Of a stretch of DNA of 64,000 nt, positions 1-64,000 are shown in pieces. The position numbers and the translations under genes were made by a program. A model generated the notes under the pieces. That model was not told where the DNA came from, made no database searches, and saw only the letters and a list, made by a program, of their open reading frames with translations. Positions within the stretch are counted from its first letter, which is position 1. Each line of letters opens with the position of its first letter. This stretch comes from Symbiodinium sp. CCMP2592 (Eukaryota; Sar; Dinophyceae; Suessiales; Symbiodiniaceae): contig CAJNDT010006024.1 of the NCBI GenBank assembly GCA_905221615.1, positions 620,001 through 684,000 of the forward strand. The letters are read 5' to 3'.

Positions 1-3000
1 GGTGGGCCGCAAGTCGGCCACCACTCCAAAACTGCTTATTACAAGCAGCACAGGTAGTCCCGCTCACGAACTGCCGGAACTCCGCCGCTCTCCCATGCAC
101 CTTGAAGAAATGGACAGTGAGGCGGGCCTTGGAGGCAAAGAGCCGCTGGCAAGGCCAGCATTTCCACAACAGGCCTTCATTCCTCGGAGCAATCGGCTTC
201 TCGAGGGTGGCCCGAAGGGCCCATTGGCCCACCGCAATGACATCTCTCTTGCCTTCTTCGGCATGCGTGGCCTTCAACCGCCGCCCAACCCGTCGCTTGA
301 ACGCGGCGGGGTGCTCGCGGATCATGGCAACCCACAGAGGCCAGGATGCACCATCCAGGCCAGGCCAATCCGCCTTATCAGGTCCAACCACCCAAGCGAG
401 GTCTTCCTGCACCGTCTGTAGCCACGTTTGCTCCGCCTGGAGGGCCGCCCAGAGGAGCTCCGGCCCGGACGTCACCAAGGAGACAAGGAGGCTTAACCGA
501 GCTCGTCGGGCAACAAGGCTCAACTTCCAGCAACCAGTGACCAAATGGGCAACAGGGAGCGGGACGTGGAAGATTCGATCTCCCTTTACGGCTGTGCATA
601 AGAGCCGCCTGACCAGCCTGGAGTACGCATTGGCCAGGAGTGCCCATGCTTTCCCTCTCGGTACCCACAATCCAATGTTGAACAAGGAGGAGGTGACCAC
701 AGTGCTGAAGAGGGCAGCTCGAACTGGTAGAGCAAGATCACGGCGATTGAGGAGAAGTTTGCCCGCAGACTCATAAGCCTGCGTGGCCAGGGCTATTCTG
801 TGGCGGGCCTCAACGATGCCTGTGTTGTGGAGGTCAACAAATCCTCCAAGGTGACGGTATTGAGGGACAATGGGGACGCTGAGACCAATGTCGTCAAGCG
901 CCAGCAATGAGGCACCGCCCTTGAAGAAGTGACGACGAATCTTAACAGAGTCTCGGCCCTTCAGCTTCAGCATCATGCTGGTTTTGCCCACCTTCATATT
1001 GGGGCACAGTCCAAAGGCCCGACACGCATCCAACACAACTGTGGTGAGCCTGATGGCCCTTCGCATGATCTCCCAGCCAGTAGTAGCCGCTGTCGGGAAG
1101 GCACTGTCGTCAGCCCAAGTGCCATCCCATCCTGGCTGTCCAAGCCCTTGGAGCCCATCACCGTAGACGCCCACATCCAAGTCGGCCGGGAGGGTCACAA
1201 CGAGGTCCTCGACAACAGCCTGCTCGAAGATCAAGCACAACATCTTGCTGTAGATAAAAGCAAAGATGGTGTCAGCGAAGCTCTCGCCAGGTCTCGATCC
1301 TGCATAGGTCTTGCAGGCTTTTGTGCCATCCGTGTACCGCGAGCAGAACCACGTGTTGTAGTGGAGGTCTCTGATGACCTGTCGAAGGGCCGCCGGGACC
1401 CCAGCGTGGTTCATAAGGCCGCCTTCGCTGATCAGAGTCATGAGCTCCTTGAGCTCATCCGGGCCCATGTTGAACCTGCGAAAGATGTCGATGACCGTAG
1501 AGTCACGGCAAATATCTCCAACCGCCAGTTCTCGAATGACACTGTAGTAAGCACTCTTCGTGTCCAAGAACAACACGGCGTAGTTGAGCCCCAACTTGTT
1601 GCATCGGCGGATGTGAGCCAGGATGTACATCTCTGGAAACAGCACCGGCGCGGACTGCCGGGGTCCGCAGTGGAGGGGGTGCAGATTTTCCTGGGTGTAC
1701 TTACTCACTTTATTGCGGACCAGCCGGTGAAAACACTTGCCGACCGTGCTGCTCACGAAGAGGCTCCGGAAGTTTGCTACGTCTTGGCACGTTCCGGAGT
1801 TCTTGAAGGCCTCGTATAAGAGGCCCCCTCTCCACTGCGTCGGCTGCTTGGCCCAAACCATGGACTTCACGAAGAGGGGCAAGTACAAGGTCGCGAGCTC
1901 CGTGGAGGCAGTGGCCAAGACTTCCCCCGGGACATTGTCCAAACCCGGGGCCTTCCCTTTCGGTGTGGCCCGCATGACCGCTGCAACCTCAGAGTGAGTG
2001 GGCAGTAGGTCTAGACTCCATTCAACATCCTCCGTTGGCATAGGGGTGGCGGCTTGGTCAATGAGATCAGGCAGAGAGACAACATGACCTTCTTCCTGTC
2101 GCCCAAAGTGCTCCAGCCAAACATCATCAAGGGCCTGTCTGTTGCACACTTTTTCCCCACTGACGGGGTGCAGGAGGGCCGGCAGGGGCCTTTTTCGGCT
2201 CTTGGCTTGAGCCCCGCCCAGTCCAGCTGCCTTCGCTCGCCGGAGAATTTGGCCAGCACTCTGGTGCCCTTCCGTGAGCAGCTGGGAAAGGAAGCGTTGG
2301 CGATCCTCTGCTATGCATCTGTTGATGCGACTAGTCGCAAAACGGATGCCCCCAGCAGCAAGCTGGTACAGGACGCCCTGTTTTTGAAGCAGTGCAACGA
2401 AACCAGCATCTCTGTCCTCCTTCCATTGTCGGAACGCCCAGGCTACCAGATCCTGCCAAAGGCTCACTCGGCCTCGGGTTCGCTTCTTAAGTCTGAGCTT
2501 TGCCTCCCGCAGCTCCCAGGTGGCCGCCGAAATGAAACCAGCACGAGCTGCACCCCGCTCTACCAGAAAATGTGTCCGGAGGGTCTGTGTAAGCATATCC
2601 TGCAGCATTTGACAGTGGCGATCTGGGGGGACCTCCCACCCAGGCTGGCAGAACTGCCGGCATGCGTCGGCCAACAACAATTTGCCCTCAGCGGACATGA
2701 GCTTCGCCCGGTCGTATATCGGGCGGAGCAGGGAGCCACGCTTTCGCCCCGGGGTCAACCACCCTTTGAGACGAAGACTGACTAAACGGTGATCTTCCCG
2801 AGGGGCTCCGGTATCGAATTGCATCTGCACCTGGCTGTGGGCCTGAACCCAATCCATGTTGCCACCAATCGCAATGTAATCGATGCGGTGCTCGCTGCCC
2901 GTATGATGAACAAAGGTGGCGTCGCCATCAGGGTGTAGATGTCGGTAGGTGGACGGTATCCACATTCGGGCCTTCCCGAGGGCTTGTACGAACCGTCGCC

Positions 3001-6000
3001 CTATGGGGTCTGGGTCGCCAAATTCAACAGGCCCAGTTGTGTCCTCGACGCCTCCAGGGACCCTACCATTTAGGTCGATTCCAAGGATCACGAGGTCATC
3101 CTTTTTGGCCTGAATCAGTGTGTCCTCTAGACCACCGAGGAAGCCCTGCCACTCCGAACCCTTTGCCTCATACGGGCAATGGGCTGCCACAATGTAAAGC
3201 TTGAGCTCACATGTAGACACGCGTAGGCCGAGTAGGCGAGGCTCTTCGACCACAACTTCAATGTCATTCTCGTCCACACAAAGTGGTCCGCAGTCTCCCG
3301 TCATCAAGCCCAGTCGCCGGTGAATCCAAATCGCCGTACCCCATCTGGACAAGGATGCCGAAGACAGGCGAAGGTAGTTGCGCGTCCGAAGGAGGCCCAC
3401 CGATGATTTGGTTTCCTGAAACAGAACAACGTTGAACTTCAAATGGTCCAACTGGGCCTCCAGGTAGGCCGCCTTACACCCAAAGCCTTGCACGTTGAGT
3501 GTTCCAATAAGAAGCTCGAGGGGTTGCTGGGTGGGCGTCGCAGCTTGGCTAGTATCCACCACAGGCACCAGCTGCTGGGGCTGAAGCCTATACCCATCAT
3601 CCTCAAATTGACCCCATTCGAGTCGCCCATCCCTGACATTCATTGTGCCATCACGTTGGGCACGAAAGGCCGTAGCCATCCACGCCAGGTCGACGGACTG
3701 AAACTCGTAGCATATCTCGACAGGTGGTTTCCCAAAGGGGCAGATTCCCCGCGCAGCGGCTTTGGCGATCACATCGCTCAACTCATTCCATGGGTCCTGA
3801 TCGTGGGCCTTGACGTGGGAGAAACCAAGAGAAAGGCCCGGTTGCTCACGGAGGTACTGTTCCAGGTGGTGAGCTCTCCCTCCGAAGTCGTCTGGGGCCT
3901 GCCAAGAGCCCACCGCTGCATAGCCCGCCGCCATACAGTCGAAGTAGACCTTGTATTGGCAGGTCGGCAGCAACGTTCTGAATTGCAGGATCCATAACAT
4001 GGCAGTCGCGACTGCTATCTGTTCCGCCCGCAGGGCAAGTGGAGCTTGCAGAGGCCACGGGGTTGCGTTGTTGCCGACCAACTGGTCACTGAGCACTCCA
4101 AAGAGAGCCATGCATAATCCCGCTCGTAACAGGATCGTGACAGCATATCCGCTGCGGTCGGGCTTGGTACTAGCAGAGCCATCAGTGTAGAGACAGACTT
4201 CTAGCTCATCAGCTCCCGGGCATTGGGCAATTAGCTGTCTCCAATCAATGGTTGTCTCGAGTGCTTCGGCCGTCACAGACTTGACAGTGATGTCCCGGAG
4301 TTCCGGGTCGACCCAAGTTGTAGGCCACGGTTTTTGACCAGCACCCCAACCAGGTGGGAGCTCAGGTAGGGCCACTGAGTCTCTCGTGAGATCAAAGGCA
4401 GGGGGCGGCAAGTGGTCCGCAAGGCGCAGAGCTCGGTTGTCCCTTCGGGTGGGTGACCGGCTCCGTTCATTGACTGGTCTTGGTGGAGGCGGTCCTCTAG
4501 GAACATCATCATCCAGCATCGTCTGGGACGAGGGGTCATAGGAACTCTCAGAACCTTGAGAGTCACCCTCCTCTGGATTATCATCAAGGCCACCGTCTGA
4601 AGAAGACGTGAGGTCAGCCATACATCGAAGAGCTACCTCCACTGTGTCGCCGTCCTCGACATGAACATCACCTTCCCGACCGACTTGGCGACCTCCATAG
4701 ACAACGACCGTGTAGCCCTCAACAACCTCAATTTGTAGGGCCTCCACATAACGACCCGGGTTGAACCGGTGGTTCTGGACGGCGACCCACTGTGGCCATA
4801 TTCCAATACCCCGGAGGTCGACAAAGACAATCTGTGTGCTTGGTCTGTGGTGGGTGGCCGCATCCACAACAGCCACAATCGTGTGGACACGGAGTCCACA
4901 CCAATTCATGCGCCGAGGGCGCTCAGTAGGCGCCCTCAGCCAAAAGGTGTCAATCGCCTTGTCAAGTTCCCGGACCACCACTGTGCTCGGGGTGTCCGCT
5001 GTGCCACGGACAGCTCGATGCAGATGTTGTTCTCGCTCGGTTTGGAAAGCGATGAGCTTCACATCGGCCGGCAGAGGGTGCTCGCTCCGGGGGTTCCAAT
5101 GGTCCGGCTCACTGAGTCGATCCTCCAGCGCTCCAGACCATACTGGTGTGGTGCCGCGGGGCATGATTTTCACCAACATTCCTTGGACTGGCCTCCTGGA
5201 TTCATCCGGGCCCAAGGGTGCCAGGTCCCCTCCAATAAACACCTCCACGGGGGCATTCTGGTCAAACTCAGCGTACTGGAGGACCGAATATCTGGTGAGG
5301 GGTCCCACATGGTAGTAGGCGAAGATTTCCTTGTTGGCCTCGCGTGCATCTAAGAGGACTCCGCACTTGTCCGAGTGGATGACCCAGTCCGGGAGCAGCA
5401 TTACGGATCCATAGTCATCATGGAGCTGGGGCTTGATCGTCACGACATACTTCAACCAGCTCTGCGCCATGGCGTTTCTGCTGTCCCTGGCCATATCAAA
5501 GACCTCCTCGATCGAGATGGGAAACTCATACGCCACATCGACACTTTCAGGGCCACAAAACGGGGACGTGACCCATACCGAGATGTGGTGGGCTGTTGGT
5601 GCCCCTGGGTCTCGTTGTACTTCTTGTTCAAGGTCTGGTCCAGGGTCAGGCCGAGGGAGCTGTTCAGGTCCAGACGGGTGAACATGCCCTGGAAGTAGTC
5701 CTCCACTGTAGAGAGGCCTGGACCAAATCAAGGTGGCTACGGCCTGGGCGCTCTGCTCATCGGGAGTATGAAGCCCAGCACATCGGTAGGCTTCCGGTTC
5801 CAGGGGCTTCACAGCCTGCACTTGCCCAATGAGGCCAAGGGCCAGCGGGATTGCAGCCCAGATGGGCCTCACCCCCACGCCCTTACGAGATTGGGCAAAC
5901 GGCCGGTTCCATAGCACGTGGTAGCCATGGGTCAACAGCAGGGAGCTCATGACCACCCAGCTGACAGTGCAGCCCACCCCAAACCACCATATCTCATATT

Positions 6001-6085
6001 GGTGGCAAAGCAGCTCGAAGAGGTTCACGAGCCACTCAAACATCATCGCCCACACATCTAAGAGATTCCATACTCTTAAGAACAT
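1..6085 (-). CDS. LINE ORF2 polyprotein: RNase H - AP endonuclease - reverse transcriptase - zinc fingers (C-terminus off the window)
   Basis: This enzyme should nick target DNA and copy its own RNA by target-primed reverse transcription. I translated the frame line by line and found no stop from 6085 to 1 (more than 2,000 codons). Residues are counted from the ATG at 6085. Hydrophobic stretches at about 5-45 and 75-90 could be two or three membrane helices. RNase H spans about 630-775, with LYTDGS, RAEQIAVATA, VYFDCMAAGYA and HVKAHDQDPWNELSD. The AP endonuclease spans about 855-1105, with GTLNVQGFG, QETKSS, GIDLNGRV and PREDHRLV. The RT spans about 1375-1750, with KAPGLDNVPGE, NFRSLFVSSTVGK, VLFLDTKSAYYSV, GSRPGESFADT, TWADDSAF (catalytic Asp pair near 1659) and YRHLGG. 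A C2H2-like finger lies near 1977 (CWPC...HFFKVH), and a second begins near 2012 (CAAC...H). The frame is also open upstream across ORF1, so the start is uncertain; 6085 is the first ATG after the ORF1 stop. ORF2 is in the -1 frame relative to ORF1. Confidence 0.9.
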   Translation of the reverse strand, partial: MFLRVWNLLDVWAMMFEWLVNLFELLCHQYEIWWFGVGCTVSWVVMSSLLLTHGYHVLWNRPFAQSRKGVGVRPIWAAIPLALGLIGQVQAVKPLEPEAYRCAGLHTPDEQSAQAVATLIWSRPLYSGGLLPGHVHPSGPEQLPRPDPGPDLEQEVQRDPGAPTAHHISVWVTSPFCGPESVDVAYEFPISIEEVFDMARDSRNAMAQSWLKYVVTIKPQLHDDYGSVMLLPDWVIHSDKCGVLLDAREANKEIFAYYHVGPLTRYSVLQYAEFDQNAPVEVFIGGDLAPLGPDESRRPVQGMLVKIMPRGTTPVWSGALEDRLSEPDHWNPRSEHPLPADVKLIAFQTEREQHLHRAVRGTADTPSTVVVRELDKAIDTFWLRAPTERPRRMNWCGLRVHTIVAVVDAATHHRPSTQIVFVDLRGIGIWPQWVAVQNHRFNPGRYVEALQIEVVEGYTVVVYGGRQVGREGDVHVEDGDTVEVALRCMADLTSSSDGGLDDNPEEGDSQGSESSYDPSSQTMLDDDVPRGPPPPRPVNERSRSPTRRDNRALRLADHLPPPAFDLTRDSVALPELPPGWGAGQKPWPTTWVDPELRDITVKSVTAEALETTIDWRQLIAQCPGADELEVCLYTDGSASTKPDRSGYAVTILLRAGLCMALFGVLSDQLVGNNATPWPLQAPLALRAEQIAVATAMLWILQFRTLLPTCQYKVYFDCMAAGYAAVGSWQAPDDFGGRAHHLEQYLREQPGLSLGFSHVKAHDQDPWNELSDVIAKAAARGICPFGKPPVEICYEFQSVDLAWMATAFRAQRDGTMNVRDGRLEWGQFEDDGYRLQPQQLVPVVDTSQAATPTQQPLELLIGTLNVQGFGCKAAYLEAQLDHLKFNVVLFQETKSSVGLLRTRNYLRLSSASLSRWGTAIWIHRRLGLMTGDCGPLCVDENDIEVVVEEPRLLGLRVSTCELKLYIVAAHCPYEAKGSEWQGFLGGLEDTLIQAKKDDLVILGIDLNGRVPGGVEDTTGPVEFGDPDPIGRRFVQALGKARMWIPSTYRHLHPDGDATFVHHTGSEHRIDYIAIGGNMDWVQAHSQVQMQFDTGAPREDHRLVSLRLKGWLTPGRKRGSLLRPIYDRAKLMSAEGKLLLADACRQFCQPGWEVPPDRHCQMLQDMLTQTLRTHFLVERGAARAGFISAATWELREAKLRLKKRTRGRVSLWQDLVAWAFRQWKEDRDAGFVALLQKQGVLYQLAAGGIRFATSRINRCIAEDRQRFLSQLLTEGHQSAGQILRRAKAAGLGGAQAKSRKRPLPALLHPVSGEKVCNRQALDDVWLEHFGRQEEGHVVSLPDLIDQAATPMPTEDVEWSLDLLPTHSEVAAVMRATPKGKAPGLDNVPGEVLATASTELATLYLPLFVKSMVWAKQPTQWRGGLLYEAFKNSGTCQDVANFRSLFVSSTVGKCFHRLVRNKVSKYTQENLHPLHCGPRQSAPVLFPEMYILAHIRRCNKLGLNYAVLFLDTKSAYYSVIRELAVGDICRDSTVIDIFRRFNMGPDELKELMTLISEGGLMNHAGVPAALRQVIRDLHYNTWFCSRYTDGTKACKTYAGSRPGESFADTIFAFIYSKMLCLIFEQAVVEDLVVTLPADLDVGVYGDGLQGLGQPGWDGTWADDSAFPTAATTGWEIMRRAIRLTTVVLDACRAFGLCPNMKVGKTSMMLKLKGRDSVKIRRHFFKGGASLLALDDIGLSVPIVPQYRHLGGFVDLHNTGIVEARHRIALATQAYESAGKLLLNRRDLALPVRAALFSTVVTSSLFNIGLWVPRGKAWALLANAYSRLVRRLLCTAVKGDRIFHVPLPVAHLVTGCWKLSLVARRARLSLLVSLVTSGPELLWAALQAEQTWLQTVQEDLAWVVGPDKADWPGLDGASWPLWVAMIREHPAAFKRRVGRRLKATHAEEGKRDVIAVGQWALRATLEKPIAPRNEGLLWKCWPCQRLFASKARLTVHFFKVHGRAAEFRQFVSGTTCAACNKQFWSGGRLAAH

Positions 6086-6198
6086 CACCTCCTCATTGTC
6101 AGTGCCATGAGGCTGCAGGACACACCGAAAAAGCCCACAGTCCTCGCCGCCAGGGTCATATTGCACTCCCCGCGGCCGGCTGCTCACAACACCCTGTT

Positions 6199-7257
6199 TC
6201 ACAGGGGCTGATTGCCCTCGCCAGCATTGACTCCCGTCTGGCCGAGGTTCGCCACCAGCTCGTCCTCGTCGGCCTCGGCCTCTGCATCGATCACCTCCAA
6301 GCTTCTGGCCTCCGCCAACTTTTCGCTCAAGGTTGGCCCTGCCGGAAGTTTGGTTTGCGGCTTCCGGCCCTGCTCTTTGACAGGCGTCCGCCTGGTGACC
6401 GATCGTGACCTCGTCCTCTGTGTCAGCCCTGGGGATGGCAGGTGCAAGGATGTCGTAGGCGAGGACATATACGGATCCTTGGCCAGCTCGGTAGCTGGCA
6501 GGGCCCCAAAGTCGGCCGGGCCATTTCCCTTCACCATGGCCGCCAGGAGCGGAGTGGTAGTACCGCGCTTCTGGGCTGTTGCCGGCTGTGGCGGCGTGGC
6601 AGGGGCCACGTGGGGCCTCGCCCTTGGCGGGGTACTCGGCGCATTCAGGACCGACCTCAGTCGTCGCTGCACCATGGCCACCGCTTCCTCTGCCATCTCC
6701 GCCTCGCTGTCCTCGTTCGTGCCCATGAGCGCATCCCAGGCCTGGTCCGCCTCGGGGTTGTCGGTCTCGCCGGGCTTGGCCAGGAGCACCTCTGGGTTGG
6801 CAATGGCCTCCTGCAGGTTCTGGAACGCCAGCTTCTGGGCCTCCTGGCTCTCCTGCAACTCCTGGTCGATCTTGCTCACACGCTTGAGGTACTTCTCGCG
6901 CTCCATGGTGAACTTCTTCTTCATTTCCCGCTGCATTTGTCCCCATTCGTCGTCCATCTGCGTGCGCTCCTCCGCCAGTTTTCGTGCCTTCACCTCCGCC
7001 TTTCTGGCGTTCGTCACCATTTTTTGTATGGATCGGACGAGCCCAGCGGCCTCCGAGGTTTCTGGAGGCTTGGTTGAAGCTGGCTGCTGTGGAGTAGTCG
7101 CAGCCGGAGTCCTCGAATAGGACTGGAACGATGGGTCCTCCCATCCGTACTCCTGGCCGTCGGCATCCCAGCCCGAGTACGAAGCATAGTCCGATCGCCA
7201 TCCCTGTCTGGCATATCCACTTCCTTTCCATAGTCCCCATTGTGGCTTCTTTCCCAT
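6199..7257 (-). CDS. LINE ORF1, coiled-coil putative nucleic-acid-binding protein
   Basis: 352 codons directly upstream of ORF2. Residues 1-60 are rich in Gly, Tyr, Trp and Ser. Residues about 75-170 are highly charged and heptad-like (runs such as KAEVKARKLAEER and EREKYLKRVSKIDQELQ), which reads as a long coiled coil. The C-terminal half is low-complexity, rich in Pro, Thr and Arg, and ends in an acidic stretch (DAEAEADEDELVAN). No CCHC knuckle or RRM was seen. In LINEs with two ORFs the first protein usually oligomerises and coats the RNA; that role is inferred from position and the coiled coil, not from a matched domain. The frame is open for about 57 more codons upstream of the ATG at 7257, up to a TAG near 7432, but holds no other ATG. 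The stop lies 114 nt before the first ORF2 ATG. Confidence 0.75.
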   Translation of the reverse strand: MGKKPQWGLWKGSGYARQGWRSDYASYSGWDADGQEYGWEDPSFQSYSRTPAATTPQQPASTKPPETSEAAGLVRSIQKMVTNARKAEVKARKLAEERTQMDDEWGQMQREMKKKFTMEREKYLKRVSKIDQELQESQEAQKLAFQNLQEAIANPEVLLAKPGETDNPEADQAWDALMGTNEDSEAEMAEEAVAMVQRRLRSVLNAPSTPPRARPHVAPATPPQPATAQKRGTTTPLLAAMVKGNGPADFGALPATELAKDPYMSSPTTSLHLPSPGLTQRTRSRSVTRRTPVKEQGRKPQTKLPAGPTLSEKLAEARSLEVIDAEAEADEDELVANLGQTGVNAGEGNQPL

Positions 7258-7512
7258 CGACTTCTTCGTTTTGTAGAGGGGCTTGGAGTGGTGGCTCTGG
7301 AGGAGCTTGACGTCTCTAGCCCACGGCTCGTGGTTCCTCCCACGCAGGGATCGAATCCTCTTACGAGCAGCTGAACGCCTCCGCCGCAGAGCACGATGCC
7401 AGGTGGGAGAAGCGGGAATGTTGGGAGCGATCTACGCGTGCAGTAAGCACTGGGGCAAGGGCAATACTCTGGGCGCTTCGCCCTCGGCTCGATCCCAAAC
7501 CCTAGGGGTTTA

Positions 7513-9228: not shown

Positions 9229-9350
9229 TATAAGGGAGTTTCCGAAAATAGGGGACCCTAATATGGTACCCTAAACAGTAGGATCCTTATCATAAGGATC
9301 CCAAAATATACGGTACCCCTAATTATCCTAATTTTCGGAAACTCCCATAT
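9229..9350. mobile_element. Palindromic MITE-like element, family C copy 1
   Basis: Terminal inverted repeats GGGAGTTTCCGAAAAT and the complement ATTTTCGGAAACTCCC enclose a near-palindromic interior with GTACC and AGTAGGATCCTTAT. About 120 bp, no coding capacity. Flanks read ATAA and ATAT. It is the best-preserved of the family C copies. Confidence 0.85.
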
Positions 9351-10156: not shown

Positions 10157-10256
10157 CTTACCTTTGGTTAGTAGGGAATGGAAGAATGGTAGTACTAGTA
10201 GCTATAATTGTACCCCATTCCTCCATTCCCTACTAACCAAAGGCAAGTGTTACCTT
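10157..10256. mobile_element. Palindromic MITE-like element, family D copy 1, with 7-bp target duplication
   Basis: TIR core TGGTTAGTAGGGAATGGA, with its complement TCCATTCCCTACTAACCA at 10222-10239. TTACCTT occurs at 10158-10164 and again at 10250-10256, on the outer sides of the arms, and reads as a target-site duplication. The same TIR core occurs at 36.9 kb and inside intron 1 of the MetAP2 gene. Confidence 0.85.
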
Positions 10257-19813: not shown

Positions 19814-19924
19814 TATAAGGGAGTTTCCGAAAATTAGGGGTACCTCATTTCGGGGCCCTTATAAGAAGGATCCTACTATTTAGGGTACCATATAAGGGTC
19901 CCCTATTTCGGAAACTCCCATAAG
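19814..19924. mobile_element. Palindromic MITE-like element, family C copy 2
   Basis: GGGAGTTTCCGAAAATTAGG pairs with CCCCTATTTCGGAAACTCCC. Interior GGATCCTACTATTTAGGGTACC. Inverted in its core relative to copy 1 and immediately followed by a TTTAGGG tract. Confidence 0.85.
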
Positions 19925-24222: not shown

Positions 24223-24335
24223 TACTTACAGGATCATGTGACTTAGAACTAGGGTTATAATTAGGGTAACTATACTTATAACCCCAATTGAGGTACTTAT
24301 AATCTTATTTACTAAGTCCCATGATCCTCCAAGTA
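24223..24335. mobile_element. Palindromic MITE-like element, family A copy 1
   Basis: TACTTACAGGATCATGTGACTT pairs with ACTAAGTCCCATGATCCTCC plus AAGTA. The arms continue as TAGGGTTATAATTAGGGTAA and ACCCCAATTGAGGTACTTAT, so almost the whole 113 bp folds back. Non-coding. Confidence 0.85.
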
Positions 24336-31757: not shown

Positions 31758-32328
31758 ATCTAGCAATCTTGAATGGTATGTGTATATAACAGCTACAATG
31801 TCAGAGTATGTTACATGTACATACTCATAACTGTTAGTAGTCTTCTTAACATTCGAGATTGAGACGTTGTAGTCGACTTACATTAGCCGTTTCTCCTCAT
31901 AGCTCGCATGTGGGTATGTCTCCTGACCAAAGCCCCTAAACCCTAAACCCCTAAATCCTAAATCCCTGATCAGGCACCGGGGTGAGGAGGGCTAAAAACC
32001 CCTCGCGATCTCCAACTCGCATCTGCGGGAAAATGCCGTGCTAAGCATGTAGATGCGCAGTGCAGGGTTTAGGGTGTAGGGTTTAGGGTGTAGAGGGTGT
32101 GTGAGTTTGCCAGAGAACATGCCCAAACGACAAGGCTTGCTCCAGAGTGGTGTTAATCGCAGAGTTGCCGTGGTTCCAGCAGGCCCATGATATATGAAGA
32201 CTGTCAACATGCAGGTGGCCTAGCAAGCACCGATTCCGACTTTCACGGAGCAGCGTGAGCGATCCTCCCGCCCTTTGACGGCTCGAGTTTCAGTAGGTCA
32301 GAACTGGCAGAAGCCAGCGAGAAGCAGG

Positions 32329-33138
32329 ATGCTTGAGGTGTTTAGCCTGTATGTTGAGTATGCGGCTGTGGCAACATCCTTGTGTTTTCTCCTGTCACCG
32401 CTTGTGGAGGTGCAGAAGGTGCATCGCTCTCAGGGCGAGACGCTGAGGGATGTTGACCCATCGAACCTACTCCTCCTGCTTGTCAACTCTGCACTTTGGC
32501 TTTGGTATGCCATCTTCTATCCGCTTCCGCCATTAGTGCTAAACAACACCATTGGACTGACAGCATGCTGCTACTGCTTGACGAGCTGCTGGTTCTATGC
32601 ACGTCGGCGCCGTGAGCAGACATGGGGGACAGCCGCAGCTGCCAGCACCGTCCTGGCATTTATGGCAATCCTTACAGCCCTCGTCTATGCAGAGACGTCA
32701 TCCTCGCACGCCCAGCAAGTTGGATACTTGGCCATGGCAGCGAACATCCTAGCTTATGGAGCCCCGCTCGCAGCGGCACGCCGAGTGCTTGTTGAGAAGT
32801 GCTCTCGGGCTCTGCCACCTGCGCAGTGCGTCCTCGCACTTTCCAGCAGTTTCCTGTGGCTATGTGTTGGCCTCAAAAAGCAAAGCATGCCGATGATCGT
32901 CCCAAACGCATGTGGTGTCCCCCTGGCGATCATACAACTCTTACTCATCTGCTTCTATCCTCGCAATCAGCGTGCCGGCGCAGAGCTTGTGAACAGCCGG
33001 GCGGAAGCCCAAGCCAATACTGTTAGTTGGCAACTGTACAGATGTAGACAGAGCTTCGGTGTTCCAGAGGGGAAGATTGCAACCGTGGTCCCAAATTTTC
33101 ACTACACGGCGAGTGCAAGTTTCCGTGCTTGTGTGTAG
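32329..33138 (+). CDS. SWEET: SWEET-family sugar transporter, tandem copy 1 (intronless)
   Basis: 269 residues. SWEETs move mono- or disaccharides down a gradient across membranes as seven-helix proteins made of two three-helix MtN3 units and a linker helix. Seven hydrophobic segments lie at about 9-27, 46-63, 69-90, 100-120, 131-150, 163-181 and 188-209. Family-like features are LSPLVEVQKVHRSQGETL after helix 1, NSALWLWYAIF in helix 2, NNTIG at the start of helix 3, and the second-unit parallels NILAYGAPLA and MPMIVPNACG. The start was set at 32329, not the upstream ATG at 32275, because the paralogue begins with the matching MLG-residue segment. A polar tail (210-269) follows helix 7. The gene has no intron where copy 2 has one. 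In a dinoflagellate such a protein could serve sugar export; that is inference. Membrane location and substrate cannot be read from the sequence. Confidence 0.9.
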   Translation: MLEVFSLYVEYAAVATSLCFLLSPLVEVQKVHRSQGETLRDVDPSNLLLLLVNSALWLWYAIFYPLPPLVLNNTIGLTACCYCLTSCWFYARRRREQTWGTAAAASTVLAFMAILTALVYAETSSSHAQQVGYLAMAANILAYGAPLAAARRVLVEKCSRALPPAQCVLALSSSFLWLCVGLKKQSMPMIVPNACGVPLAIIQLLLICFYPRNQRAGAELVNSRAEAQANTVSWQLYRCRQSFGVPEGKIATVVPNFHYTASASFRACV

Positions 33139-34253
33139 CAGGGGTGTGTGTATAGAAAACGTGCTTGCGCATCGTCGCACGCCGCACAGTCATTTTTCTG
33201 CAAACTTCATACGAGGGCTGTTGGAACCGACCTGGTGGCTAAGCAAGCAACTACCAGCGAAGCTTCTGCTATGAAGTTTGGTTTAGGAGGCAAAAACTTC
33301 ATGTACCACCTGGCACTTGAGGAAAAGATTGGCGACTCTCTGAGTTTGATCCGACCCAGGGGCTGGAATACAGCCTCTTCCAGTGCAAGTGCCGAGTATG
33401 TGAATCATGTGAACCGTGTGATGTAGGGCTATGCTCAGGTTCAAGAACACGACTAAGTAGATGATGGCAAAGTAGATGACGTGTGAGAGCACGGGTATGG
33501 TTCAATGATGAGCATTGGGCGGCTGAAGTGACACAACTTTAATATCAAAGGTAAGTAATCAATCATGTTCTTCATGCTGACGACAAGCATGAACCCTGGG
33601 GTTTCGGATGATGGAGGTGATGGCGATGCTGAGCACTCCTTCAACACCGGAATTCTTTGTTTCGGGGGAAGTGATAGTGAAGGTGAAGGTGATGCTGCTT
33701 CGATGATTGTGATGATTTCGATGATGAAGATGACGGTGATGATGATGATGATGACGATGATGGTGATGCGGCGGTGGGGATGGTCATGATATCGATGTCG
33801 GTTGTCGCGATGACGGTGATGGCGATGATGGTGCTGATGGTTGTCGTGATATGGTTTCCGACTGCGGAGATGATTCAGCGATGATGATTATGACGACGAA
33901 TATGACATGAACATGATGGCGGTGGGGGGTGTTGATGGTGATGATGATGATGTTGATGATAGCAGGTGATGGCGATGATGGTGATGATCAGGTTGGTGAT
34001 TGTGGTTCCGGTAACAATGATGGTGATGCTTTCCGCTGTTTGGTGGCAGCGCGACAGTGCTTGCAGTGCAGCCAGTGTTACTGCAGTATTCTTGACGGCC
34101 AGTAGGACTGAGAAATGTTGAGCTGCCGAAGCTCATGACTTGACTGACGGAATCGGGCTGATTGCTTTGACGCTGCGAGGGATATCCTAACACCTGGATT
34201 CTGCCGCTCAAGTTTCAGCTTTTAAGAGCTTGTAGAAGCCAACGAGAAACATA
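33139..34253. other. Spacer between the SWEET copies, with (GAT)n-rich repeat
   Basis: About 33600-34025 is rich in GATGGTGAT and ATGATGATG units. The last 50 bp before the second start resemble the 5' flank of copy 1 (AGTTTCAG, then AGAAGCCAACGAGAAAC), so the tandem duplication included upstream sequence. No gene seen. Confidence 0.7.
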
Positions 34254-35224
34254 ATGCTTGGGGCGCTTAGCTTCTACATTGAGTATGCGGCCGTGGCAGC
34301 ATCTGTTTGTTTTCTCCTGTCACCGCTTGTGGAGGTGCAGAAGGTGCATCGCTCCCAGGGCAAGACGCTGAGGGATGTTGACCCATCGAACCTACTCCTC
34401 ATGCTTGTCAACTCTGCGCTTTGGCTTTGGTATGCCATCTTTGTCCCGCTTCCCCCTATGGTGGTGAGCAACACCATTGGAGTGACAGCAGGCTGCTACT
34501 GCTTGACTAGCTGCTGGTTCTATGCACGTCAGTGCCGTGAGCAGACATGGGGCACAGCCGCAGCCGCCAGCACCGTCCTGGCATTCATGGCAATCTTCCT
34601 GGCCCTCGTCTATGCGGCAACGTCATTCTCTCATGTCCAGCAACTGGGATATGTCGCCATGGCAGTGAACATCCTCGCATACGGAGCCCCGCTCGCAGTG
34701 GTGAGCCGAGTGCTTGTTGAGAAGTGCTCCCGGGCACTACCACCTGCGCAGTGCATCCTGGCACTTTCCTGCAGCTTCCTGTGGCTTTGTGTGGGTTTGA
34801 CCGAGCAAAGCATGCCCCTGATACTCCCGAATGCATGCGGCGTACTTCTTGCGATCCTGCAACTTTTCCTCATTTGGTTCTATCCTCGTAAGGATCGTGA
34901 CGAGTCGTTGAGCAACCAGGGGCTTGGGAGGACACTGCTTGCCACTTCACAGTGTGGCACGAAGCAAGGGATGCTTGACAACCTTAAACAGGCTCCGAGC
35001 ACATGGGAAGTCCAATACATGCAATCTTTCCGCCACAGCCGACATGACAGGCGCCATGGCCGTACTTCTACAGGAATCCCGAAGCCCACGCCAATGTTGC
35101 TCGTTGGAATATGTACAGATGCAGACTGAAATATCCGAACCAGGGCGTCCTAAAGGGGATGATTCCAGCCTTGGTAGCGAATTCCTACTGCACGGAAACT
35201 GCAACTTTCCGTGGTTGTGCATAG
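34254..35224 (+). CDS. SWEET: SWEET-family sugar transporter, tandem copy 2 (two exons)
   Basis: Proposed exons are 34254-34930 and 35074-35224: 828 nt, 275 residues and a TAG stop. Residues 1-210 match copy 1 without gaps (about 172 of 210 identical by hand count), with the same seven hydrophobic segments and the motifs LSPLVEVQKV, NSALWLWYAIF and ILPNACG. Read straight through, the frame diverges after residue 226 and ends at 35129. Removing 34931-35073 restores a tail that aligns with copy 1 (NPEAHAN against RAEAQAN, then YRCR in both, then FRGCA against FRACV) and ends at an equivalent stop. That is why I call an intron rather than the longer frame. The alternative is a frameshifted pseudogene, but the intact join and tail conservation argue against it. 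Role as for copy 1: passive sugar transport, substrate unknown. Confidence 0.85.
34931..35073 (+). other. Predicted GA-AG intron in SWEET copy 2
   Basis: 143 nt. The boundary reads GGGAG|GACACTG and CTTCTACAG|GAATCC. AGGA is repeated at both boundaries. The split codon (AG + G) gives Arg and keeps the reading frame. Length is not a multiple of three, so retention changes the C-terminus. Unlike the MetAP2 introns it shows no strong palindrome. Other 5' sites in the same phase (GC at 34921 or GA at 34928) are possible. Confidence 0.7.
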
Positions 35225-36735: not shown

Positions 36736-36845
36736 CGTAAAGGGTCATGGGACTGAGTAACTAGGTTGTAATTAGGGTATCTATACTTATAACCCCAATT
36801 AAGGTACTTATAACCTTACTTACTAAGTCCCATGATCCTCCAAGC
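36736..36845. mobile_element. Palindromic MITE-like element, family A copy 2, with target duplication
   Basis: AAAGGGTCATGGGACTGAGTAA pairs with TTACTAAGTCCCATGATCCT. AGGCCCA is present at 36729-36735 and at 36846-36852, directly flanking the arms, which reads as a 7-bp target duplication. Confidence 0.88.
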
Positions 36846-36857
36846 AGGCCCAGTTGT

Positions 36858-36960
36858 CTGTCCGGTTCTTGGTAGGGAATGGATACTGGGGACTATTATG
36901 GGGGGTTATATAGGGATTACTTTAGGGATCCATTCCCCCATTCCCTACTGAGCACCGGGG
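36858..36960. mobile_element. Palindromic MITE-like element, family D copy 2, with target duplication
   Basis: The left end is CTGTCCGGTTCTTGGTAGGG and the right arm ATTCCCTACTGAGCACCGGGG. AGTTGT occurs at 36852-36857 and 36961-36966. The left end matches, base for base at most positions, the left end of the copy in MetAP2 intron 1. Confidence 0.87.
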
Positions 36961-37075
36961 AGTTGTTGTGGGCGGGGATTCGGAACCCGCTGTTATAGAG
37001 TTCTGCCCAGCTTTGGGTTCTGAGAAAATTGACTCGCAAGTGCTTCTATCCAGCATCAGTGCTGTCGTCCTCGAA

Positions 37076-50467: not shown

Positions 50468-50566
50468 TGTAGGAACCTGATTAAGAAACCTTGGGCCTTT
50501 ATCCGGGTTCCTTAGACGGATCCTACTATTTTGAGGTTATAAGGCCCAGGGTTTCTTAATCCTACA
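50468..50566. mobile_element. Family E palindromic element
   Basis: TGTAGG, then (after a 6-bp insertion) ATTAAGAAACCTTGGGCCTT, pairs with AAGGCCCAGGGTTTCTTAAT and CCTACA. The interior GGATCCTACTATTTTGAGG is shared with family C. Only one copy was seen in the window. Confidence 0.8.
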
Positions 50567-53535: not shown

Positions 53536-54544
53536 CTACAACTCCGCTGGTCGGAAGCTCTTTGATGTTGGGGGGCCTTCTGCGCGTGCAACTTCTAAAC
53601 CGTCTTTCTCGCGCTCGCCTGAAGCTCAAAGTCTGCAAAGCAGGGTCGAGGAGCTCGCAGTACTCCTCGTGGAGCAGGAGGAAGAACTACTTCAAGATCC
53701 CTTGGTTGCATCTCGACTGCTTGGCTTTGGGCGTTGAAAGGTGGACTCTGAGACAACCAAGTTTGGTGTCCGATCACATCATCAATTTGTCCATCACATG
53801 CTGAAGGGTGTGAACCAAGATACCTGCAAGAAGGAAAGTCATGTCACGCGAGCTTCGCTGAGGACAATTTGACCTTAGCTTATGGCTGGATTTTCTTGGC
53901 CCAGACCCTCTACAATACAGGAGCTGCTCTTTTCTCTGGACTGGCTTGCCCTGGGTTCGTAATGCAGTGGTCAGAAGAACAGGCAGACGGTAGTCCCATG
54001 GTCCCTCCTTAGTTTCATGACACTGTGTCGCAAACCCGTTCAGAAATTTCCATTATGTACATTTAATGGAGTTATCGATGCACACAGAGACGAACCCATC
54101 TGGATCCGAATAGCCTGAAATGCAGACAACTGCCCTTATGCAATGCTAAAATCCCTAAAACCCCAGACCCGAAAACCGACGGCTGCCCCCAGCAATTGGA
54201 TTCCGGGATGTCGTATGGCTCAAGGGCAAAGGCCCTCGTAAAAAAATGAAAAGACATAGAGTATAGAGACATGTGAAACTCAAGTTGATCTGCGCCTTGA
54301 TCTGTGCTATCGACCAGGCCATGAATTACATGTGGTCGGTGCTCGTGTAAAGTGCACATCTGCAACAAGTCCAACATGTGTGTATAAACACATTCGACTG
54401 GTGGAAGTCAGAGCTCAGCCCGAAACCGTAGCTGGGCTTGCAAGGAGGAGACAAAGACATGGCCGACGCCTTTCTGACCCGCGTAGGCTGGAGGGTTCTT
54501 CTCGTGCCCAGAGCTACTTGTAGGGTCTGGGGCCATCGAACCCC
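53536..54544. other. Intergenic stretch without a supported gene
   Basis: No frame over about 110 codons, nothing recognised, no marked repeats. Confidence 0.45.
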
Positions 54545-54668
54545 TACTTGGAGGATCATGGGACTGAGTAAGTAAGCTTATAAGTACCTGAATTGGGGTT
54601 ATGTGTGGTTATAAGTATAGTTGCCCCCATTATGACCCTAGGTACTAAGTCCCATGATCCTTCAAGTA
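54545..54668. mobile_element. Palindromic MITE-like element, family A copy 6
   Basis: TACTTGGAGGATCATGGGAC pairs with AAGTCCCATGATCCTTCAAG plus TA: near-perfect 25-bp ends. A 10-12 bp local duplication in the loop (GGTTATGTGTGGTTATAAG) makes it longer than its relatives. Confidence 0.9.
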
Positions 54669-55337
54669 GGACCCTAAACCCAACCCCCAAAACTTGAAAC
54701 CAAACCTAGGCCCCAAACCCTGAAATCCAAAGCCCTCATCGCGGAGCCTTACGGCGTACTTCATGTATGCCATATTCCTAAACCCTAAACCCACCATCTC
54801 CGAACCTGATGCCTTACTCTATCGAGATGTAGCTGCAGAATGTATGATGCGTAATTGTAAAGCGACCTTGAGCAGTTGAATGGGTTGATCGGACTCTGGG
54901 GCTCAACACAAGGCTGGCCTACTGAAGAACATGGGCAGAAGACTCGCCAGACTTGAGCCCTAAATCCCAAGCAGTTCAGTGGGGCCCTGCCCTGAAAACC
55001 CTACGCGTCGGCAGTGGTTTTTTGTGTTTAAACCCTCTTCTGCTCTTTCAAAAATCCTTTCGAGGCCGCCTCGTGAAGAATGAGGATTTGGCTATGGAGG
55101 CCTTGGCCCTCTATGCCGCCTGGCCAGTTTTGGATACCCTCAGATTCCAAGAAGTCCTCGTGGTTTTGGGTACCTCAAAAGCACCCAAAGAGTCGCAACT
55201 TTTATGGTTTTGGGTGCACAAAAAGAGGCCAAAGTCCTATGATAGAGAGTACTTGGACCCTTAGGGATAGGTGCAATCTCGTGAAGCGGAACACAGGACT
55301 GCCGAGACTCCTTACAGACAGTAATTCCTAGAAATTG
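54669..55337. other. Intergenic stretch with telomere-like units
   Basis: CCCTAAACCC-like units at 54669-54730 and 54778-54795. A 103-codon frame at 54953-55264 contains an internally repeated WFWV-like segment from short direct repeats and has no recognised domain. Confidence 0.45.
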
Positions 55338-61278: not shown

Positions 61279-61352
61279 ATGGGGGGTTGTCAAAATTATG
61301 GTCCCTTCTTGGGTCCCTAATATAGTACCCTAATTTTGACAACCACCGACAT
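61279..61352. mobile_element. Family G palindromic element
   Basis: ATGGGGGGTTGTCAAAATTA pairs with TAATTTTGACAACCACCGACAT. Interior GGGTCCCTAATATAGTACCC, as in family C. 74 bp. Confidence 0.8.
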
Positions 61353-62614: not shown

Positions 62615-64000
62615 ATGGTGGATCCAGATCCCGAAGAAAAGCAAGAGGGAGAGGTCGAGGCGGCCGACGCTGCCGCAGCCAAGAAGAAAAGGAAGAACAA
62701 GAAGAAAAAGAGCCCCGCAGCAGGGGATGCAGCGCAGGATGAAGAAGCGGTCCCGGCAAGTGCAGAAGCTGGGGCTCCTGATTCACCCAATGCGCAAGAA
62801 AGCGATGAGGAGGACAAGGTGGATGCGGCAGATGCCGCAGGAGATAAGAAGAAGAAAAAGAAGAAGAAAAAGGCCGGATCCGGAGGAGGTGGGGCCAAGG
62901 CTTTCAATATCCCCGAGCAGGACAACACCGCCCTCCGCCGGGTCCGAAACTGGGCTGCGGTACCCACGTCACGGCAAAGTCCAGAATTCGACATTCCCGT
63001 CAGTGAGCAGTATCCTGATAGCCAGTTTCCGCTCGGCGAATGTGTCGAGTACGTTGGATCGCACGCCTTCCGGACGTCATCCGCTGAGAAGCGTGAGATG
63101 GAGCGGCTCATGTCCTATGACTACGAGAAGATCCGCAAAGCCGGAGAGGTTCATCGCCAGGTCAGGAAGTACGTGCAGTCCTTCGTGAAGCCTGGGCTGA
63201 AGATGACGGAGATCTGCCAACGCCTGGAGAGAAAAACCCACGAGTTGGTAGTAGCGAACGGCCTTGAAGCAGGATGGGGCTTCCCAACAGGTTGTTCCCT
63301 GAACTATGTGGCCGCCCACTACACTCCGAACTATGGGGACGAAACTGTCTTGCAGTACGATGACGTTTGCAAGTTGGATTTCGGTGTTCAAGTCGGTGGT
63401 CGCATCGTCGACTGCGCCTTTACCATCGCCTTCAATGAGAGGTATGACCCCATCATTGAGGCAAGTCAGGCAGGTACCAACACTGGAGTCAAGGACTGTC
63501 TGGTTCTTAGTAGGGAATAATGATCGGGGCCCCGATGCTATAGTAGCCTTATGGTATCCCTCATAGATCCCTTTAAAGGAACCCCCAAGAGTAGTCTCCA
63601 TAATCGATTGCCCCACTCCCTACTAAGAAGCAGACAAGGAAGCGGGCATCGACGCGCGCTTCCAAGACATCGGGGCCGCCATCCAGGAGACGATCGAGTC
63701 CTACGAGATCGAGATGAATCTTAGGGGTAAATAGAAGTATTTTTCAGCTTTTAGTTCTGCAGAAGTTCTGCATAATTCCCAAGTTTAGAAATAGCAGTTG
63801 AAAACTGTAATAGGTTTTTGCTACGGGTCTAAGACTAAGTTCAGTATAGGCATAGGAGTTTCCGAAAATAGGGACCCTAAGAAAGTACCCCAAATAGTAG
63901 GATCCTTATTATGAGGACCCCAAAATAAGGTACCCCCCCAATTTTCGGAATAGGAATGGCAAGACCTGGCCAATCAAGTCGGTGCGGAACCTCAACGGCC
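62615..64000 (+). CDS. METAP2: Methionine aminopeptidase 2, N-terminal part, three exons (3' end off the window)
   Basis: Removes the initiator Met from nascent cytosolic proteins; a two-metal M24B peptidase associated with ribosomes. Proposed exons are 62615-63493, 63639-63715 and 63954 onward, giving 334 residues before the edge. Residues 1-95 are the acidic and poly-Lys leader typical of eukaryotic MetAP2 ([10 protein letters not shown] at 23-32, nine Lys at 78-86). The catalytic domain follows: HYTPN with His235, KLDFG with Asp255 and IVDCAFT with Asp266. These correspond to human His231, Asp251 and Asp262, a constant offset of four. Exon 2 reads [20 protein letters not shown], and exon 3 ends [15 protein letters not shown], just before the expected metal-binding His. 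The ATG at 62615 was chosen over 62492 because the family leader begins there. An unspliced reading would end at 63520 inside a palindromic element. The remaining metal ligands and the fumagillin-reactive His context cannot be assessed or are only partly visible. Confidence 0.93.
63494..63638 (+). other. MetAP2 intron 1 (GA-AG), formed by a family D element
   Basis: 145 nt. GTCAAG|GACTG at the left, ACAAG|GAAGCG at the right. Joining gives NTGVK-EAGID with no gap against the family pattern. The element inside accounts for 139 of the 145 nt; the rest is one copy of its target duplication. Confidence 0.88.
63496..63634. mobile_element. Family D palindromic element acting as an intron (introner)
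   Basis: CTGTCTGGTTCTTAGTAGGG opens the element and TCCCTACTAAGAAGCAGA closes it as an inverted repeat with one mismatch over 19 nt. CAAGGA flanks it at 63490-63495 and 63635-63640. Related copies lie at 10.2 and 36.9 kb. Confidence 0.92.
63716..63953 (+). other. MetAP2 intron 2 (GA-AG), with a family C element at its 3' end
   Basis: 238 nt. GAGAT|GAATC at the left and GGAATAG|GAATGG at the right. Joining gives EMNGKTW, matching the family spacing. GAAT is repeated at both boundaries. The first about 135 nt are AT-rich with no repeat recognised. Confidence 0.87.
63852..63950. mobile_element. Family C element in MetAP2 intron 2
   Basis: GGAGTTTCCGAAAATAGGGA at the left and AATTTTCGGAA at the right, with AATAGTAGGATCCTTATT in the core. 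The right arm stops at CGGAA, three nucleotides short of the splice site, where other copies continue with ACTCCC. Confidence 0.85.

Follow-up and report, generated by a model that had tools for sequence, protein, structure and literature searches.

Probable origin of the first MetAP2 intron from a family D inverted-repeat element in Symbiodinium sp. CCMP2592

How the first intron of a MetAP2 gene in Symbiodinium sp. CCMP2592 came into being is the question raised by the right end of the 64-kb stretch of DNA analysed here (the window; GC content, 50.8%). The gene is of the dinoflagellate type, and its parts were placed as follows.

62615 to 63493, plus strand: coding portion of exon 1, beginning at the likely start codon (spliced protein matched to Pfam Peptidase_M24, MetAP2 structures, and MetAP2 homologs)
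63494 to 63638, plus strand: intron 1, 145 nt, GA...AG then G, phase 0 (removal restores GVK-EAGID; retention stops the frame)
63639 to 63715, plus strand: exon 2 (spliced protein aligned to MetAP2 structures and P0001)
63716 to 63953, plus strand: intron 2, 238 nt, GA...AG then G, GAAT at both boundaries, the 3' part being a GGAGTTTCC-family element (spliced alignment, family comparison)
63954 to 64000, plus strand: exon 3, which runs off the window end (spliced protein aligned to MetAP2 structures)

The joined exons encode a protein of 334 amino acids in which the Peptidase_M24 domain was found (Pfam). Against solved MetAP2 structures the best E value was 3.6e-79, and the alignment was gapless across both exon junctions. 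Removal of intron 1 joins GVK to EAGID, and the same join is present in the human MetAP2 structure (1b6a, which we take to be human MetAP2) and in P0001, the closest protein among the relatives listed. P0001 was 96 to 97% identical to the window protein in two comparisons, has 508 amino acids, and is encoded without intron 1 or intron 2 on a contig no longer than 1,623 nt. It has the translated leader of this gene in common and is continuous through both junctions. P0001 is most likely the cDNA of a near relative and could instead be a retrocopy. Among the best 69 of the 120 MetAP2 relatives listed, the organism names shown were Pelagodinium, Effrenium, and Amoebophrya; the label Skav of relative P0012 presumably stands for Fugacium kawagutii. 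The comparison with relatives was made on proteins.

The initial annotation had stated that splicing at AAG/GA restores the conserved MetAP2 sequence exactly. The restored K-EAGID and the gapless junctions support the restoration, but "exactly" is too strong. In the 102 of the 120 listed relatives that fitted the search expression, the residue after K at the intron 1 junction was E in 51, which makes E the commonest residue but not an invariant one, and A, N, H, M, T, L, C, V, and Q were also found there. The M in the Effrenium protein P0019 was considered as a sign of a mis-spliced intron, and this reading was dropped because so many residues occur at that position. A MetAP2 profile search of viral contigs found two stretches that fit the pattern, neither of which codes for a relative.

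The boundaries of intron 1 are formed by two copies of CAAGGA, between which lies a short element with inverted ends.

63490 to 63495, plus strand: left copy of the direct repeat CAAGGA, ending in the proposed GA donor (sequence)
63635 to 63640, plus strand: right copy of the direct repeat CAAGGA, with the acceptor AG/G inside and the cut after 63638 (sequence)
63496 to 63634, plus strand: family D element copy 3, 139 bp (inverted ends, direct repeat, family comparison)
63497 to 63516, plus strand: left inverted-repeat arm of copy 3 (inverted-repeat search)
63617 to 63636, plus strand: right inverted-repeat arm of copy 3, with TACTAAG at 63621 to 63627 as a possible branch site (inverted-repeat search, word search)

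Six choices of junction inside the CAAGGA repeat were compared, and all gave an identical protein. Among these equivalent cuts, CAAG/GA...CAAG/GA alone has the donor and acceptor usual in dinoflagellates, and the donor and the acceptor are therefore both placed inside the CAAGGA copies. Of the claims made earlier for this locus, the one that CAAGGA stands directly on each side of a 139-bp inverted-repeat element is confirmed, and the one that the target duplication makes both splice sites is supported. As given in the excerpt of PMC10666404, the spliceosomal rule in dinoflagellates is a GT, GC, or GA donor and an AG/G acceptor, to which the GA...AG/G of intron 1 conforms. In table 2 of that paper, GA donors amount to 17.4 to 23.8% and AGG acceptors to 79.7 to 97.1% in Prorocentrum, Polarella, Symbiodinium, Durusdinium, and Cladocopium; the corresponding values are 0.1% and 93.2% for Amphidinium gibbosum and 0 and 56.5% for Amoebophrya ceratii. 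Protein homology and the fit to these rules together predict that intron 1 is spliced in Symbiodinium sp. CCMP2592.

If intron 1 were kept in the mRNA, a stop would be met in frame at 63518 to 63520. The stretch could then be unspliced and belong to a broken MetAP2 paralog that carries a MITE, with the mRNA coming from another locus. This would agree with the stop and also with the nearest protein listed, P0001, being 97% rather than 100% identical, so that the expressed copy may be another one. It is nevertheless very improbable, as the frame apart from the introns is open and conserved across 334 codons, a second plausible intron is present, and the cut obeys the GA and AG/G rules of the lineage.

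The arms of copy 3 are 20 nt long, 95% complementary, and 100 nt apart. A low-complexity filter removes all family D copies, and the significance of copy 3 was thus assessed with tandem repeats masked. In the resulting list (cut-off score, 14; 17 rows, of which 8 were AT runs and 9 were others) its arm pair scores 17, above every pair in 20 dinucleotide shuffles (none over 15); any pair scoring at least 14 was held by 5 of the 20 shuffles, with 7 such pairs in all. As RNA, the intron 1 stretch is predicted to form a hairpin of −51.8 kcal/mol (z, −3.4), equalled by 1 of 200 shuffles. No open reading frame of at least 90 codons was found that starts and ends inside the element, and copy 3 is accordingly considered nonautonomous. 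Being short (139 bp), with TIRs, a direct repeat, and no ORF of its own, it has the traits of a MITE.

The direct repeat by itself is weak evidence for insertion, because the splice consensus accounts for its AGG. When random places in the window are sampled, 3.6% show a 6-bp direct repeat at the CAAGGA spacing if both ends are loose, and 1.5% do so if the 5' end is fixed. The right arm of copy 3 and the right CAAGGA have 2 nt in common; for copy 3 alone, a 3-bp duplication (GGA) therefore fits as well as one of 6 bp. A rival view is that an older ordinary intron stood at the K/E junction and was afterwards invaded, or for the most part replaced, by a family D element, and that the repeat arose from the AG/G consensus and chance. 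AGG at both boundaries, a requirement of dinoflagellate splicing according to the part of PMC10666404 available, is what this view would predict. Against it, copy 3 fills intron 1 nearly end to end (63496 to 63634 within 63494 to 63638): the element spans from repeat to repeat, and its 5' end, as defined by comparison with copy 2, abuts CAAGGA and leaves no residue of an older intron.

The comparison with copy 2 draws on the other members of family D in the window.

36858 to 36960, plus strand: family D copy 2, with AGTTGT on both sides at 36852 to 36857 and 36961 to 36966 (arms at 36862 to 36958, end comparison)
10157 to 10247, plus strand: family D relative, copy 1, arm score 27, with differing outer ends; its flanking repeat (TTACCT) is ambiguous (inverted-repeat search, CTTAGTAGGGAA)

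With at most one mismatch, CTTAGTAGGGAA occurs 6 times in the 64-kb window versus 0.28 expected, and the 6 matches are the two arms of each of three family D elements. The family thus has three copies in 64 kb, one of them in a recognised gene, MetAP2. In their interiors the three copies can be aligned only poorly. Starting right after AGTTGT and CAAGGA, respectively, copies 2 and 3 are identical at 21 of 23 bases, and they agree in only one of the six bases that precede this shared 5' end, while AGTTGT and CAAGGA each recur at the far end of their own element. The flanking duplication therefore differs by locus, that of copy 1 being ambiguous. Copies 2 and 3 have the appearance of one element that was inserted twice, each time at another target, and this is the best evidence for transposition. 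The splice consensus cannot account for AGTTGT, as there is no AGG in it. The arm pair of copy 2 scores 12, which is under the cut-off of 14 in the tandem-masked list. In a wider search, 39 pairs scoring at least 12 were found, of which 15 passed the low-complexity filter; 5 block shuffles gave 1 to 2 pairs each, of which no more than 1 had a direct repeat of at least 5.

The earlier proposal that the intron was probably created by insertion, with no change in coding, is accordingly supported by the inverted ends, the flanking repeat, and the second member with a different repeat. That the element, its duplication, the exons, and relatives can be seen together is likewise correct, all of them lying within 64 kb, but to place the relatives outside genes was to say a little too much; copy 2 sits where no gene was recognised. 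A 16-base pattern for the family D ends gave 63 matches, 7 of them in viral and 56 in genome contigs. They were taken as chance because at none of these loci do family D ends form an inverted pair. Viral contigs were also searched with patterns made from two other element families, and no match was obtained.

Copy 2 also bears on whether intron 1 spread by reverse splicing of intron RNA rather than by DNA transposition. The precedent is that of the fungal symmetric introns, which, in the excerpt of PMC8469720, have long terminal inverted repeats without flanking duplications, work on the coding strand only, and led to proposals of other mechanisms. The authors of that study read the missing duplications as a sign against DNA transposition, and here a duplication is present. 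Moreover, the 6-bp repeat that flanks copy 2 lacks AGG, and no gene was recognised at that place. Spread through intron RNA is the least probable of the explanations considered and can almost be set aside.

Small elements with inverted ends are not confined to family D. TIR elements of 60 to 130 bp are frequent in the window, and at least two further families were distinguished.

9230 to 9350 and 19819 to 19919, with partial copies near 42.9 and 60.1 kb and one in MetAP2 intron 2: GGAGTTTCC family (inverted-repeat and family search)
24223 to 24335, 36741 to 36839, and 54543 to 54670: GGATCATGGGAC family (inverted-repeat and family search)
50479 to 50561 and 61285 to 61344: singleton TIR elements (inverted-repeat search)

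The element at 50479 has its own ends, and its interior word GGATCCTACTATTT also occurs in the GGAGTTTCC family (19819), which gives the impression that elements have swapped ends and interiors. The GGAGTTTCC element in intron 2 is truncated, its usual outer right end being missing. It is bracketed by ATAGGA at 63852 to 63857 and 63950 to 63955, the second copy of which contains the acceptor, and it looks like an element inserted beside a pre-existing acceptor. Elements of another family thus appear to enter or adjoin existing introns here, which makes an older intron at the K/E junction a real possibility in this gene. In view of the fit of copy 3 from repeat to repeat, an older intron is still considered unlikely for intron 1.

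Elsewhere in the window, two similar SWEET-type sugar transporter frames (Pfam MtN3_slv) lie in tandem on the plus strand at 32224 to 33135 and 34236 to 35126, each open across both repeats without an intron. An open frame of 2,438 codons occupies 2 to 7315 on the minus strand in GC-rich DNA (58%); it gave weak matches to RNase H and to endonuclease/exonuclease/phosphatase, both under the Pfam cut-offs, and is possibly a retroelement polyprotein. Rfam and tRNA scans of the window gave no match.

From these data, intron 1 of MetAP2 is very probably an introner, formed by insertion of a family D MITE at CAAGGA with the duplication supplying both splice sites. In the mechanism proposed, a transposase acting in trans would have moved the MITE into the MetAP2 exon, and the insertion would have duplicated CAAGGA and so created AAG/GA on both sides. 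The spliceosome would then take GA in the left copy as the donor and AG/G in the right copy as the acceptor, and the element would be spliced out with one copy of the duplication, leaving the mRNA unchanged. The hairpin or the TACTAAG of the right arm may play a part. What is read from the sequence is the insertion with its duplication and the agreement with splice rules; the transposase and the splicing are inferred.

Introners are known in several eukaryotes including dinoflagellates, as the initial annotation stated and as the excerpts of PMC9860276, PMC7789003, and others document. Those with inverted ends and target duplications are already published for dinoflagellates, and MetAP2 intron 1 is a further clear example; there are also published families in which the duplication provides both splice sites. 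The comparisons that follow refer to the parts of the cited papers available. The introners of Symbiodinium microadriaticum have TIRs and 4-bp TSDs, carry the 3' splice site, and obtain the 5' one from the TSD, while other surveyed families obtain both splice sites wholly or partly from the TSD or the neighbouring exon (Gozashti et al. 2022, PMC9860276). The MetAP2 case resembles these in that a short element with TIRs and a TSD becomes an intron whose splice sites come partly or wholly from the TSD and, as in most of those families, in that mRNA length would be unchanged. Compared by description, it differs from the S. microadriaticum family in having a 6-bp repeat with both splice sites inside it, although a 3-bp duplication, against the 4-bp TSDs of that species, is possible for the MetAP2 copy taken alone (PMC9860276).

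The introner elements of Amoebophrya A25 and A120 likewise have inverted repeats of 8 to 20 nt inside the intron ends that form a hairpin, and direct repeats that overlap the exon-intron boundary (Farhat et al. 2021, PMC7789003). Their direct repeats are of 3 to 5 nt and their splice dinucleotides very variable, whereas MetAP2 intron 1 is GA-AG/G (PMC7789003). In Polarella glacialis, 12,253 recent introner introns (Roy et al. 2023, via PMC11453091) and 15 introner families with at least 100 introns each (PMC11453091) are reported; the likeness, by description, is to intron-creating transposable elements of many families in this and other dinoflagellates (PMC11453091). Introner elements are also described in Effrenium and other Suessiales (PMC11114475, PMC10522408) and in Prorocentrum (PMC10666404). 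The MITE-like, intron-generating introners of Micromonas and Aureococcus (Huff et al. 2016), the latter with direct repeats and TIRs, are similar in kind but belong to other lineages and use canonical splice motifs (PMC7789003).

The inverted ends contain a further feature that may bear on splicing. Family D copies 1 and 3 have the word TACTAA(C/G) in each of their arms, and the three GGATCATGGGAC elements have it in the right one; in copy 2 of family D only degenerate forms are seen. The word is close to the branch-site motif UACUAAC, as given in the abstract of PMC13004596. The window has 17 matches to TACTAAS versus 11.6 expected, and 17 is reached by 8 of 100 shuffles. Ten TIR elements, which together cover 1,033 of the 64,000 bases (1.6%), contain seven of the 17, and all seven lie 9 to 21 nt from the 3' end of the element on their own strand. 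The naive binomial P value for this enrichment is 4.8e-9, for a pattern noticed after the fact in which the 7 matches come from two families only; with all 15 inverted-repeat rows (2,937 bp, five longer pairs having been added) the count is still 7 of 17 and the naive P value is 5.5e-6.

In intron 1, the first AGG downstream of TACTAAG is that of the right CAAGGA. The three AGs between TACTAAG and the acceptor are followed by A, C, and A, and two more AGGs lie upstream in the intron, at 63512 and 63577, as possible rival acceptors. For a GA-AG(G) junction mutant, the excerpt of PMC5818653 reports that an AG followed by A was skipped in favour of an AG followed by G. That TACTAA(C/G) in the inverted ends acts as a branch site, and so pre-adapts these MITEs to splicing, is a tentative suggestion and rather doubtful. 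As the ends mirror each other, a copy with the word in both arms would, whichever way round it is inserted, have a branch site close to its 3' end. The word would, however, be paired in the hairpin stem, which argues against free access. In the text available of the introner papers PMC9860276 and PMC7789003, "branch" occurs only for tree branches or a branched-chain enzyme, and in that of PMC8469720 no statement was found that the inverted ends of fungal symmetric introns carry a branch site.

The locus offers a compact case of intron birth: a single stretch of 64 kb contains the gene, the element with its duplication, and a sibling copy flanked by another duplication. Should the suggestion regarding TACTAA(C/G) be true, insertion in either orientation at an AG/G target would give a ready-made intron, the duplication providing both donor and acceptor, and the word would help to account for the difference between MITE families that give rise to introns and those that do not.
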